Positions 5,364 to 24,117 of a stretch of DNA of 64,000 bases are shown here, one piece after another; within the stretch, counting starts at the first letter, position 1, and each line of letters begins with the position of its first letter. A program made the translations under genes and the position numbers. The DNA is from Stenotrophomonas nitritireducens (GTDB taxonomy: Bacteria; Pseudomonadota; Gammaproteobacteria; Xanthomonadales; Xanthomonadaceae), in contig NZ_CP016756.1 of the NCBI RefSeq assembly GCF_001700965.1, positions 1,116,001 to 1,180,000 of the forward strand, written 5' to 3'. The notes under the pieces are model-generated. The model searched no databases, had not been told where the DNA came from, and saw only the letters and a program-made list of their open reading frames with translations.

Positions 5364-5701
5364 CCTTATGTTTGGTTGGGGATTACTTGCTTGAAAGCTT
5401 GCCCTCACCCCAACCCCTCTCCCGTGAACGGGAGAGGGGCTCGCATCGCTCGCGCTGGTAGTGAATTAGCCCCTCTCCCGCCTGCGGGGTGAAAGGAGCA
5501 GCTTGCGAACCACAGGTTCGCTGCTCCTTGAACGGCCTTGCGCCAGCGCAAGGACCGGGGCGCGGAGCGGGGGTTGGGGTGAGGGCAAGCTCCTTGCTCG
5601 CAGACCCCCCAAAACCCCGAATTCATCCAGCTTTAACAGCGCTAGGCGCTCCTTACGCCTGCCGGCACATTCCAGCCCGGTTCATTCTTGCGGAGGCGTT
5701 T
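5364..5701. other. Intergenic region dominated by a composite REP repeat
   Basis: No gene is supported here. Positions 5401-5586 hold a 186-bp composite repeat (listed separately). The remainder carries the leader of the OmpA-like gene, with GGAGG just before the ATG at 5702. Frames that stay open through the repeat are GC-rich artefacts. Confidence 0.7.
5401..5586. repeat. Composite REP element, copy 1
   Basis: The ends are inverted: GCCCTCACCCCAACCCCTCT on the left and GGGGTTGGGGTGAGGGC on the right. Inside are a palindrome CCCCTCTCCCG..CGGGAGAGGGG, a second partial palindrome near 5470, a TTGCG-ACCA-GGTTCG hairpin and CTTGCGCCAGCGCAAG. The same order of parts occurs at 7070-7254 on the other side of the OmpA-like gene. 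Confidence 0.8.
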
Positions 5702-15567: not shown

Positions 15568-17205
15568 TCAGCTGCGATAGCCGTTGGTGATCGGATAGCG
15601 CCGCTCGCGGCCAAATGCGCGCCGCGACACCTTGGGCCCCGGCGCCGCCTGGTGCCGCTTCCACTCACTGATGCGTACCAGCTTCAGCACCCGGTCCACT
15701 ATTTCCGGGGCATAACCGGCGCCAACGATATCCTCGCGCGACTGCTCCTGATCGATGTAGCGGTACAGGATGCCGTCCAGCACGTCGTAGGCAGGCAGCG
15801 AGTCCTGGTCGGTCTGGTTGTCACGCAGCTCGGCCGAAGGCGCGCGCGCGATCACCGCCGGCGGAATCACCGGCGCCCCACCCACCGTATTGCGCCACTT
15901 GGACAGGCCATAGACCTCCGTCTTGTACAGGTCCTTCAACGGCGCATAGCCGCCGCACATGTCCCCGTAGATGGTGGCGTAGCCCACCGCATACTCGCTC
16001 TTGTTGCCGGTGGTCAGCAACAGCCCGCCGAACTTGTTGCTCAGCGCCATCAGGATCACACCACGGCTGCGCGACTGCAGGTTCTCCTCGGTGACATCAG
16101 CCGCCTGGCCTTCGAACATGGCCGACAGCGACTGCATCAGACCCTGGAAGGCAGGCTCGATCGGCACCGTTTCAAGCTTCACGCCCAGCGCGCGGCATTG
16201 CTCCACCGCCAGGTCGTTGGACAGATCAGCGGTGTAGCGCGAGGGCATGCTGACCGCGGTGACGTTGTCCGCGCCCAGCGCATCCACCGCCATCGCCAAT
16301 ACCAATGCCGAATCGATACCGCCGGACAGCCCCAGCCATACCTTGCTGAAGCCGTTCTTGCGGCAATAGTCCTGGATACCGCGGGTCACCGCGCGCCAGG
16401 CCAGTGCGTCCATGCTCTCATCGCCATCGTCGATCCAATGCAGCGGCATGAAGCTGCGCGCGGCGACGTTGTACTCGACCACCAGCATCTCTTCGCTGAA
16501 GGCCACCGCGGCCGGGTGCACCGTGCCATCGCCATCGGCCACCACCGACGCACCGTCAAACACCACCGCATCCTGGCCACCGACGGTATTGACGTAGGCG
16601 ATGGCAACCCCGGTATCGCGGCTGCGCTCGGCCAGCAGCGCATCGCGCTGCGCGTGCTTGCCGCGTTCGTACGGCGATGCGTTGGGCACCAGCACCAGCT
16701 CGGCACCGGCCTTGGCGGTAGCCGCCAGCGGCTCCGGGAACCAGAGGTCCTCGCAGATCACCAGGCCCAGCTGCACGCCATTGACCTCGAATACGCAATT
16801 GCCGCCGTCCGGGTCCACGTCAAAGTAGCGACGCTCATCGAACACCGCGTAATTGGGCAGCTCGCGCTTGCGGTAGGTCTGGGCCACTGCGCCCTCGCGC
16901 AGCACGCTGGCAGCGTTGTAGACCACCGCCCCGGCGCTCTGCGGCCAGCCGACCACGGCGACGATGCCCTGCGCTTCGGCCGCAACCCGCGCCAGCGCCT
17001 GCTCGCAACTGCGGAGGAAACCCGGCCGCATCAGCAGGTCTTCCGGCGGATAGCCGCTGATGGCCAGTTCCGGAAACAGCACCACCTCGGCGCCGTATTC
17101 GTCACGCGCCTCGTGCATCAACTCGATGATGCGGCTGGCGTTGCCGTCCACGTCCCCGACCGGAAAATCGAACTGGGCCAGGGCGATGCGTAGCGATTGG
17201 GACAT
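15568..17205 (-). CDS. nadE: Glutamine-dependent NAD+ synthetase
   Basis: NadE amidates nicotinate adenine dinucleotide to NAD+ using ammonia from glutamine. The 545-residue, two-domain form is seen: an N-terminal nitrilase-type amidase with Glu in VLFPELAISGYP, Lys in YRKRELPNY and Cys in VICEDLWF, and a C-terminal synthetase with the ATP-binding LGLSGGIDSALVLAM and TTGNKSEYAVGY. The length is normal for the glutamine-using form. The start lies one base after the stop of the DUF559 gene (AGAAGG upstream), so the two are probably cotranscribed. Confidence 0.96.
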   Translation of the reverse strand: MSQSLRIALAQFDFPVGDVDGNASRIIELMHEARDEYGAEVVLFPELAISGYPPEDLLMRPGFLRSCEQALARVAAEAQGIVAVVGWPQSAGAVVYNAASVLREGAVAQTYRKRELPNYAVFDERRYFDVDPDGGNCVFEVNGVQLGLVICEDLWFPEPLAATAKAGAELVLVPNASPYERGKHAQRDALLAERSRDTGVAIAYVNTVGGQDAVVFDGASVVADGDGTVHPAAVAFSEEMLVVEYNVAARSFMPLHWIDDGDESMDALAWRAVTRGIQDYCRKNGFSKVWLGLSGGIDSALVLAMAVDALGADNVTAVSMPSRYTADLSNDLAVEQCRALGVKLETVPIEPAFQGLMQSLSAMFEGQAADVTEENLQSRSRGVILMALSNKFGGLLLTTGNKSEYAVGYATIYGDMCGGYAPLKDLYKTEVYGLSKWRNTVGGAPVIPPAVIARAPSAELRDNQTDQDSLPAYDVLDGILYRYIDQEQSREDIVGAGYAPEIVDRVLKLVRISEWKRHQAAPGPKVSRRAFGRERRYPITNGYRS

Positions 17206-17206
17206 A

Positions 17207-17587
17207 TCAACAACCTTCTGCTTGGCCCCGCACCCTGCGGGGGCTTGGTGTTACGCCCACCGCGCGCAGGATGCTTTCGCAGACCGCAGCCGTGTGGCTC
17301 AGGGCCTCATTATTCCAGAAGCGCAGCACACGGTAGCCGTTGCGGTGCAGGAAGGCTTCACGGCGCAGGTCATTGGGGTCGGTGGCGTGCTGGCTGCCGT
17401 CCAGTTCAATCACCAGCTTGTGCGCCAGACAGGCGAAATCCACGACATAGGGGCCGATGGGGTGTTGGCGGCGGAACTTGAATCCGACCAGGTGACGGCT
17501 CCTGAGGAAGTACCAGATCCGCCGCTCGGCTTCTGTCATGCGGCGGCGCAGGGCACGGGCACAGCCGGTTTTGCTGCCTTCACGCAT
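17207..17587 (-). CDS. DUF559 (Vsr-like) endonuclease-domain protein
   Basis: The 126-residue product starts at MREGSKTGCARALRRRM; GGAGG stands 6 bases before this ATG. The middle (GPYVVDFACLAHKLVIELDG, then SQH) shows the D-x(n)-E-L-D-G-x-Q-H core of the DUF559 family, a PD-(D/E)xK nuclease fold related to very-short-patch repair endonucleases; RRQHPIGPYVVDF is also typical. It ends right before nadE. The substrate is unknown. Upstream begins the large inverted-repeat element. Confidence 0.85.
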   Translation of the reverse strand: MREGSKTGCARALRRRMTEAERRIWYFLRSRHLVGFKFRRQHPIGPYVVDFACLAHKLVIELDGSQHATDPNDLRREAFLHRNGYRVLRFWNNEALSHTAAVCESILRAVGVTPSPRRVRGQAEGC

Positions 17588-17720
17588 GGGAGCCTCCTTG
17601 TCAGGAGACGATCGCCTGCAGCAGCCGCAGTTGGAATCGGGGAAGCAGGCGGATTGGATATCCATTTCTCTGCTTTCCGGGGCGGGGTAGCTTGGATGGC
17701 GGAGACAGAAGCAAATGCAA

Positions 17721-18357
17721 AAGCTTGCCCTCACCCCTACCCCTCTCCCGCAAGCGGGAGAGGGGAAATCAACTGCAACAGCGAGGAGCAAAGCCACAGC
17801 CACAGCCACAGCCAAAGTCCCAAAGCCCAAAGCCAAAGCCCAAGTCCAAAGTCCAAAGTCCAAAGCCCATGGCCCAAAGCCCAAAGCATCAAACTAGGGC
17901 ACGCACAAAATTTCGAGTTGGGAATATCAATCAACGAGGGTTAGCGTTTTCTTTAGTTTTTGCCGCTAGCTTTGCTTTTGAGGTGACTCCGGTCTTTGGC
18001 CTTTGCCTCGCCTTTGCTTTTTGCTGTGGCTGTGGCTGGGGCTTTGGGCTTTGGGCTTTGGGCTTTGGGCTTTGGGCTTTGGGCTTTGGACTTTGGACTT
18101 GGGCTTTGGCTTTGGGCTCTGGCTCTGGCTTTGGCTTTGGCTTTGGCTTTGGCTTTGGGCTTTGGGCTTTGGGCTTTGGGCTTTGGGCTTTGGACTTTGG
18201 ACTTTGGACTTTGGACTTGGGCTTTGGATTTGGCCTTGGCTATGGCTATGGCTATGGCTATGGCTCTGGCTGTGGCCTTGGGGCCGTTGTCTCGGCCTTG
18301 GGCCTTTGCTGTCCCCTCTCCCGCCTGCGGGAGAGGGGTAGGGGTGAGGGCAAGCTT
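17721..18357. repeat. Large inverted-repeat element with tandem heptamer arms
   Basis: Two 45-bp REP copies bound the element in opposite orientation: AAGCTTGCCCTCACCCCTAC begins the left one at 17721 and the exact inverse ends the right one at 18357; they differ at one loop base. Inside the left arm (about 17793-17887) are CAAAGCC-type units and CAGCCA units. Inside the right arm (about 18020-18285) are many GGGCTTT and GGACTTT heptamers mixed with GGCTTT, GGCTAT and GGCTCT hexamers. The arms are therefore inverted relative to each other, around a unique core of about 130 bp. Confidence 0.85.
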
Positions 18358-18414
18358 CTGCTTCGGCCTTGGCTTTGCCTTCAGCATTCGCTCCCGCTCT
18401 TCCCCCCGTCCCCC

Positions 18415-18445
18415 AACAAAAAAGGCCACCCGAAGGTGGCCTTTC
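18415..18445 (-). terminator. sucCD terminator
   Basis: Minus-strand stem GGCCACC/GGGTGGCC with a TTC loop followed by TTTTTTG, 22 bp after the sucD stop. Confidence 0.9.
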
Positions 18446-18466
18446 TCAAATCACGAAAGCGCAGTC

Positions 18467-19342
18467 TTACTTGACCAGCTTCGCAATTGCAGCGCCCAGG
18501 TCGCCCGGCGAGCGGACGGTGACAACGCCAGCAGCTTCCATCGCCGCGAACTTGCCTTCCGCCGTGCCCTTGCCGCCCGATGCAATCGCACCGGCGTGGC
18601 CCATGCGCTTGCCGGCCGGAGCCGAGGCGCCGGCGATGAAGCCAACAACCGGCTTCTTCACGAACTGCTTGATGTACTCGGCACCGGCTTCTTCAGCGTC
18701 GCCGCCGATTTCGCCAACCATGATGATACCTTCGGTCTGCGGGTCTTCGTTGAACAGCTTCAGGCAGTCGACGAAGTTCAGGCCGTTGATCGGGTCACCA
18801 CCGATGCCGATGCAGGTGGACTGGCCCAGGCCGACTTCCGTGGTCTGCTTGACCGCTTCATAGGTCAGGGTGCCCGAACGCGACACGATGCCGATCTTGC
18901 CCGGCATGTGGATGTGGCCCGGCATGATGCCGATCTTGCACTCACCCGGGGTGATGACGCCCGGGCAGTTCGGCCCGATCAGCACGGTGTCCGGATGCGA
19001 ACGGGTCAGCACGTTCTTGACGCGCAGCATGTCCAGCACCGGGATGCCTTCGGTGATGCAGACGATGACCTTGATGCCGGCAGCAGCGGCTTCCAGGATC
19101 GCGTCGGCCGCGTACGGCGGCGGCACGTAGATCACCGAGGCATTGGCGCCGGTGTTCTGCACGGCATCAGCCACGGTGTTGAACACCGGCAGGTCGATGT
19201 GGGTGGTGCCACCCTTGCCCGGGGTCACGCCGCCAACAACCTGGGTGCCGTACTCGATCATCTGAGTGGCGTGGAAGGTGCCCTGCTGGCCGGTAAAGCC
19301 CTGCACGATCACCTTGGTGTTCTTGTTAATCAAAACAGACAT
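18467..19342 (-). CDS. sucD: Succinyl-CoA ligase, alpha subunit
   Basis: SucD forms the phosphohistidine intermediate and binds CoA in the TCA-cycle step succinyl-CoA to succinate. The 291-residue product has the CoA-binding fold ([20 protein letters not shown]), [20 protein letters not shown] and the catalytic histidine in [24 protein letters not shown] precedes the ATG. It is 21 bp downstream of sucC and shares its transcript. Confidence 0.97.
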
Positions 19343-23878: not shown

Positions 23879-24117
23879 GCAAGCGGCGGGAACTGGGGTA
23901 GAGCCGAGCCATGCTCGGCACCACCGTTCTAGCCCCCTCTCCCGTTTACGGGAGAGGGGTTGGGGTGAGGGCGCTTTTCGCGGGTAAAGCCACTTGCCGA
24001 GCATGGCTCGGCACTACCGCTTCAGCCCCTCTCCCGTTTACGGGAGAGGGGTTGGGGTGAGGGCGACTTTCGCAGGTAAAGCCTTTGCCGAGCATGGCTC
24101 GGCACTACGGGTGAGGC
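23879..24117. repeat. REP-SMAG tandem cluster between pilR and pilB
   Basis: A lone SMAG copy at 23898-23920 is followed by two near-identical ~90-bp units, each a REP palindrome (23933-23972 and 24025-24064) plus a SMAG copy in reverse orientation (23995-24017 and 24086-24108). The cluster fills the whole space between the convergent pilR and pilB. Confidence 0.85.

Follow-up and report, generated by a model that had tools for sequence, protein, structure and literature searches.

Past the end of sucD on the chromosome of Stenotrophomonas nitritireducens, two inverted copies of a short palindromic sequence enclose two tandem arrays of 6/7-bp units that run in opposite directions. Is this structure the product of a dedicated element, or did each end give rise to its own array? 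The question touches on triplex- and hairpin-driven repeat expansion, a long-standing problem that has mostly been pursued in human disease repeats, and the pattern at this locus may offer a natural system in which to study repeat growth caused by unusual DNA structures. Unless stated otherwise, positions refer to the window, the whole 64,000-nucleotide stretch of DNA that was analysed (contig NZ_CP016756.1, 1,116,001 to 1,180,000).

Anatomy of the locus

An inverted-repeat search places the two arms at 17717-17772 and 18306-18361 (56 nt, 93% complementary). An earlier, sequence-only reading of this DNA had described the outer 45 bp as inverted copies that differ once, in the loop, and the two 45-bp core copies do differ at a single loop base (GCTTGC vs GCCTGC). 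Its description of opposed arrays, with CAAAGCC units on the left and GGCTTT, GGGCTTT and GGACTTT units on the right, agrees with the output of TRF, and the locus lies where it was said to lie, between sucD and the DUF559-nadE pair, with all three genes on the minus strand. From left to right, the features are as follows.

15568-17205, minus strand: nadE (gene context)
17207-17587, minus strand: DUF559 gene (Pfam PF04480, 2e-39), adjoining the motif pair
17728-17765, minus strand: left potential triplex motif (TM), with third strand at 17728-17737 and hairpin at 17740-17765 (10-bp stem, loop GCAAGC), from the sequence and the inverted repeat; this TM copy is the one at genome position 1133728
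17789-17887, minus strand: left array of CAAAGCC, CCAAAGC and CACAGC units (TRF)
17888-18018, no strand assigned: core between both arrays, GCTTT-rich at its right end, with no TRF row
18019-18284, plus strand: right array of GGGCTTT, GGACTTT, GGCTTT and GGCTAT units (TRF and repeat search)
18313-18350, plus strand: right potential TM, with hairpin at 18313-18338 (loop GCCTGC) and third strand GGGGTGAGGG at 18341-18350, from the sequence
18351-18380, plus strand: flank of the right TM on its tail side, containing GCTT-like seeds, from the sequence and the tail consensus of 58 + 45 TM copies; genomes G018 and G055 have tail-side arrays at this place
18416-18446, minus strand: hairpin and T-run directly past sucD, a probable sucD terminator (by eye)
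18467-19342, minus strand: sucD (gene context)

The left array is GGCTTT on the minus strand, the same strand as the left TM, and stands about 25 bp off that motif's stem side. The right array is likewise separated from the stem side of its motif, the right TM, by about 30 bp, and it holds a 111-bp higher-order repeat (2.4 copies by TRF). Folded as a single DNA strand, 17717-18361 reaches -206 kcal/mol, compared with -116 (sd 6) for 20 shuffles (z -14.6). The one large hairpin that the sequence-only reading envisaged is thus possible, but it is a consequence of two inverted TMs with arrays of fixed polarity: because each array holds the polarity of its own TM and the TMs are inverted, the arrays oppose each other and the entire region is able to form a fold-back.

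A minus-strand open frame (17953-18429, 158 codons, Lys/Ala-rich) crosses array and TM, and reads LTPTPLPQAGEG over the latter. We considered a protein encoded by the array and rejected it; the frame has no Pfam match and is probably spurious, and long frames in pure AAAGCC/GGCTTT arrays mean little because such arrays are without a stop in any frame. The hairpin and T-run at 18416-18446 are absent from the two sites given by a terminator scan. A plasmid search matched five records, in every one of them through the TM ends alone. Elsewhere in the window, at 23903-24108, TRF finds a 92-bp tandem unit composed of a TM and a GTAG-type palindrome (2.2 copies, 90% matches) without a short array.

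Both ends match a potential triplex motif

Each end consists of a 10-bp hairpin (CCCCTCTCCC, a 6-nt loop, GGGAGAGGGG), then 2 nt, then a third strand, GGGGTGAGGG, that is approximately the mirror image of the G-arm. The search definition of the TM, or PIT, motif (Holder et al. 2015, PMC4666352) takes stems of 6-15 and loops of 1-6. The parts that it describes are present at both ends: a C-rich arm, a loop and a G-rich arm, followed by a mirror third strand behind a short second loop, here of 2 nt. Judged by their sequence, both ends are potential triplex motifs and not canonical REPs. The E. coli consensus TMECO (CCCTCNCCC-N3-6-GGGNGAGGG-N3-GGGNGAGGG; PMC4666352) has N3 between the G-arm GGGNGAGGG and the third strand GGGNGAGGG, whereas here there are 4 nt, one base beyond that spacer, because the 10-bp stem is one pair longer; we thus filed the motif as a length variant and not as TMECO. 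Triplex formation by an E. coli TM is known from in vitro work, where the structure was stable; Holder et al. report no triplex signal from duplex DNA or in vivo, and TM loci are described as unusually variable in E. coli (PMC4666352).

The stretches of the chromosome that we sampled hold 103 TM copies, 58 of type 1 and 45 of type 2. In type-2 TMs a small hairpin separates the arm from the third strand, and their second loop of at least 8 nt places them outside the search definition of PMC4666352. The triad rule (G.G, A.A, A.T) is obeyed at 571 of 580 type-1 positions and 396 of 405 type-2 positions, and triad agreement falls to 0.87-0.88 when third strands are exchanged between the two types. 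Within a type, arm and third strand show matched changes (GGGAGAAGGG with GGGATGAGGG in three copies, and GGGGGAAGG with GGATGGGGG in three copies), which are few and, since TM copies are related, are not independent events; some single copies show unmatched changes in the arm or the third strand.

Calling the ends a REP derivative, as the sequence-only reading did, is apt only in a loose sense; the triplex motif fits instead. The common TTGGGG copies have no GT[A/G]G head, the GTAG within GGGGTAGGGG at this locus being the loop that joins arm and third strand, and we found no link to a Y1 transposase (see below).

The motif pair persists while the arrays turn over

The sequence beside sucD was compared in 50 genomes from the genus, our own among them (the best 30 of 88 matches and 20 chosen from the other 58). 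Eight of the 50 carry the inverted TM pair, with 547 (G000), 364 (G087), 231 (G055), 94 (G018), 259 (G076), 54 (G071), 85 (G010) and 352 bp (G075) between the stems. The locus is thus a variable tandem array (VNTR), whose length differs among orthologous loci from 54 to 547 bp in eight species. The units vary as well: GGCTTC is found in G010, GGCTTA together with GGCTTT in G076, and TTTGCC/TTTGCT in G075, while the tail-side arrays in G018 and G055 are of GGCTTTC or GGTTTT. By eye, DUF559-like sequence stands beside the TM pair in all eight pair-bearing genomes (in G075 judged from its start only). The pair is missing in the other 42 genomes, among which no clean empty site is readable; the nadE-sucD distance is 180-248 bp in the 20 that were measured (24 were compared), which leaves no room for DUF559 in those 20.

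Spacers and units thus differ among the eight while every one of them has the pair: the pair has been retained in part of the genus, and the arrays have turned over. The earlier suggestion that the locus is expanding agrees with this variation in spacer length and array content among the eight orthologous loci, and with the occurrence of similar arrays at many other places. The outcome that the same reading had named as fatal to it, an array found only here and of invariant length, did not occur in this comparison between species.

The lasting presence of the TM pair past sucD would fit a role specific to the pair. One explanation of the whole locus is a selected function, in which the structure serves as an insulator, a terminator, an mRNA 3' end or a topology site and the arrays are kept as its modulators. 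The retention of the pair at the same site in eight species points in this direction, as do a triad rule that is largely kept in the genome and a strand that folds strongly. However, array content is strongly different between species, an Rfam scan of the locus gave nothing near any family's gathering score, and an earlier assay of the PIT motif detected neither promoter nor terminator activity (reported in PMC4666352). Retention of the TM could, moreover, stem from a function of the TM alone. We therefore judge this explanation unlikely.

Arrays adjoin the motif on a fixed strand across the chromosome

As the sequence-only reading had noted, copies elsewhere in the window are without arrays: those at 5419, 7088, 11310, 11381, 23939, 24031 and 30479 have no adjoining array row. 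Outside the window, many genome copies of the same hairpin do adjoin arrays. A search for GGCTTT-type units in triplicate, run with three variants of the unit, gave 51, 59 and 303 matches, overlaps included, against 0, 0 and 3 for the reversed-pattern controls. We defined arrays by a period of 5-16 and a TRF score of at least 60, and counted them as near a TM when they lay within 60 bp of its hairpin. The sampled stretches, which total less than 1 Mb and some of which were picked for holding arrays, contain 50 distinct arrays, and by this measure 41 of them are near a TM. The GGCTTT strand is co-oriented with the TM in 37 of the 38 arrays for which both orientations are defined, the sole mis-oriented array being that of L219; 30 arrays lie on the stem side of their TM and 7 on the tail side.

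An even sample of the genome together with the window (41 stretches, 864 kb) has 18 of 24 arrays near a TM, compared with a random mean of 0.36 and a maximum of 4 in 2000 draws. Since the window was chosen for the finding, we also left it out, and the even sample alone (800 kb) gave 16 of 22 arrays against a random mean of 0.28 and a maximum of 4. Among the six even-sample arrays away from a TM, one is at 116 bp, one is at 345 bp and three are without a TM within 700 bp; the sixth (L216) adjoins, by eye, a TM-like variant outside the search pattern. At L026 (2325-2442; genome position 2395724), a 13-bp CAGCAAGCAACAA array lies about 340 bp off a TM and has the same sense as a nearby AAAGCCA array.

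Arrays are specific to this motif among the palindromes of the 864 kb. An array lies within 60 bp of 16 of 69 TM hairpins, compared with none of 170 GTRG palindromes (Fisher, 6e-10) and 5 of 144 other hairpins with a stem of at least 9 (Fisher, 2e-5). When the window is left out, the counts are 14 of 58 TM hairpins and none of 153 GTRG palindromes (p 4e-9). The array rates at GTRG palindromes and other hairpins indicate that hairpins as such do not account for the arrays. The combination of a TM with a same-strand array thus recurs through the sampled genome.

An alternative is that G-quadruplexes, and not triplexes, drive the instability. By eye, type-1 TMs, which have four G-runs, and the GGGCTTT runs of the right array at our locus match the G-quadruplex pattern, and the GGGNATC heptamers of Xanthomonas have been studied as G-quadruplex repeats (PMC4692102). 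But type-2 TMs (GGGAGAAGG..GGATGAGGG) are without G-runs and yet keep the triad rule; they also have array-like flanks (11 of 45 on the stem side and 6 of 45 on the tail side), and many arrays are made of GGCTTT or GGCTTTT units with two Gs only. A G-quadruplex origin is, in our judgement, distinctly unlikely.

Another possibility is that TM pair and array form a REPIN- or MITE-like unit that moves whole, the array being a carried tail. The dispersal of the TM fits such a unit, with 189 matches at up to 3 mismatches, often inverted (a reversed-pattern control for this search, with 72 + 95 matches, is uninformative because the TM is nearly mirror-symmetric). So does the position of arrays at a fixed end of each repeat family in relatives, TM2 excepted. 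Six genomes were searched for Y1 transposases and five of them hold ten loci, none with a TM hairpin in the flanks covered, which reached up to 1.5 kb on each side and less at two contig ends; GTAGTGCCGAGC palindromes lie near three of the ten Y1_Tnp loci. The RAYT-type transposase linkage that the sequence-only reading had suggested looking for was accordingly not found across the six genomes. No target duplication was seen, the 42 pair-less genomes show no clean empty site (with the short nadE-sucD distances given above), and 53 of 69 TM hairpins lack an array within that 60-bp distance. The claim that the element is mobile is thus not supported, and we hold a carried-tail unit to be quite improbable. 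The proposed class of elements with REP ends and GGGCTTT between them gives way to individual TMs with an array apiece. Finally, ordinary microsatellites that share intergenic space with the repeats by chance, as intergenic DNA tolerates both, have almost no prospect of explaining the pattern, for they are contradicted by the controls (16 of 22 arrays against 0.28 expected, 0 of 153 GTRG palindromes, 37 of 38 co-oriented).

Arrays tend to oppose the replication fork

The dnaA gene is at 2,283,946, where GC skew switches sign. Relative to the fork, GGCTTT is opposed in 33 of 46 arrays (p 0.0045), or in 25 of 33 loci when only the longest array per locus is taken (p 0.0046). TMs with arrays are opposed to the fork in 26 cases and run with it in 10, compared with 26 and 47 for TMs without arrays (p 0.0005), in statistics where paired TMs are not mutually independent. 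The even sample alone shows the same trend, which is not significant there (8/6 vs 15/29, p 0.21). In G055, all three TM-adjacent arrays are opposed to the fork. This bias is contrary to most of the chromosome's own G and T skew. The tail-side arrays are opposed in 7 of 7 cases, as is the majority. We rejected a slippage geometry in which the polymerase stalls before the structure, because it predicts the opposite fork orientation for tail-side arrays and all seven are opposed.

Proposed mechanism

The comparisons above establish the anatomy of the locus, an inverted pair of potential TMs with stems inward, and the association of arrays with TMs, its specificity, the polarity and the array turnover; slippage is inferred from them. 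We consider it probable that each TM nucleated its own 6/7-bp satellite on the triplex-motif strand through strand-polarised replication slippage at the TM edges. The TM strand would fold when it is single-stranded in replication, and the polymerase may stall or restart beside the folded TM. Nascent ends could then slip onto nearby GCTTT-like seeds, one of which is in the TM tail (in the consensus, GAGGG is followed by roughly CAG.TTT). Further rounds of slippage, together with mutation of units and renewed amplification nearby, might in turn yield the GGACTTT and GGCTAT blocks and the 111-bp repeat. The scheme presumably involves a triplex in vivo and a seed on the stem side of the TM, where little conserved seed is seen.

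If this reading holds, the opposed arrays are explained without a dedicated element, and the TM/PIT motif, so far tied to general variability, gains a specific directional signature. One chromosome would then provide dozens of natural replicates with internal controls, since a given TM is found both beside an array and without one, loci lie in either orientation to the fork, TMs come in two types, and numerous other palindromes have no array. The arrays could also be used as typing markers.

Array loci in relatives and beyond the family

With one mismatch allowed, 75 of the genus's 91 genomes contain three copies of TTTGGC, which are abundant in four of them (G000, G055, G076 and G087, with 152-192 matches). 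Of 395 genomes sampled from the family, 119 contain three copies of TTTGGC as well, and 34 of those 119 belong to the same genus. We examined 60 array loci from 60 other genomes. A structured repeat lies within 160 bp of the array in 41, all 41 of them co-oriented, and 19 are unassigned. Among the 41 loci, the families E1 (11 loci), E2 (11), E3 (14) and TM3 (3) each have the array at one fixed end, counts for which the E1-E3 and TM3 patterns were defined after inspecting the loci and in which several loci are mutually orthologous; TM2 is at 2 loci, with one array on each side. Stems of at least 8 are present in the array flanks at 49 of the 60 loci, compared with 27 of 60 control windows. An Rfam search gave no match in 13 array loci of other genomes. 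E1 (GAGCCGTAAAGCGAGCC..), E2 (CCCGNAGGGCGGC..ATGGATG) and E3 (..GGGTTTACGGCG..) are three large structured intergenic families (L149-L178, L267-L288).

E1-E3 are not TMs and yet adjoin arrays, so the triplex is not the sole nucleator. In G055, three of seven sampled arrays are near a TM. Outside the family, a 50-kb part of a Cupriavidus replicon holds two TMs, one of them with an 11-bp array at a distance of 12 bp, while short arrays accompany none of three TMs in 20 kb of a Mitsuaria plasmid and none of four TMs at two loci of E. coli K-12. The Cupriavidus replicon also shows, at 25577-25750 of L339, an inverted TM pair, the 11-bp array being GCTTGATCGCT. The TM is thus neither sufficient, as in E. 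coli, nor always required, as the other structured repeats in relatives demonstrate; something besides the TM, either a seed or a factor of the lineage, must therefore contribute.

More tentatively, we suggest that several unrelated structured repeats, namely the TM in its three types and three further families of large stem-loops, may be fixed-polarity nucleators of one shared GGCTTT-type satellite within this bacterial family, acting via a replication process that is specific to one strand and starts from a common seed. This broader idea, which we put forward as a possibility that falls short of even likelihood, would make the arrays the bacterial equivalent of repeat expansion driven by DNA structure, at work at dozens of loci in a few species.

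Relation to known repeats

TM sequences and the variability linked to them were already known (PMC4666352). The motif here shares with them the C-rich arm, short loop, G-rich arm and mirror third strand, as well as a dispersed, intergenic distribution, at times in inverted pairs, and a tie to local variability. In contrast to the satellites found here, the changes described in the passages of PMC4666352 that were compared are deletions and small changes and not polarised satellites, and Stenotrophomonas and Xanthomonas do not occur in its main text. Among the open-access papers listed by a literature search, we saw no account of polarised satellites beside TMs.

REP and RAYT biology is likewise known in Stenotrophomonas (PMC2817692, PMC3686654, PMC3733652, PMC2613905). 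REP, REPIN and BIME sequences with RAYT (Nunvar 2010, PMC2817692) are, like the TM, short intergenic palindromes of high copy number that form inverted pairs. The TM differs in its missing GT[A/G]G head and in the absence of TM hairpins from the flanks covered at the 10 Y1 loci, and the GTRG palindromes of the same genome differ from it in having no array within 60 bp (0 of 170).

The third known system is the heptameric G-rich SSRs of Xanthomonas, GGGNATC (Rehm et al. 2015, PMC4692102), which share with our arrays an intergenic heptamer, the same bacterial family and a length that varies between species, but have a different unit; the main text of that paper has no occurrence of Stenotrophomonas. 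We collected 17 distinct GGGAATC contexts from 10 family genomes, of which 12 are without a stem of at least 8 within 120 bp and one (L312) is near a type-2 TM. At about 1460-1640 of L265, from another genus, GGGAATC/GGGACTC-like heptamers run straight into a GGCTTT array, and these joined arrays indicate that the heptamer SSR class and the GGCTTT class can meet.
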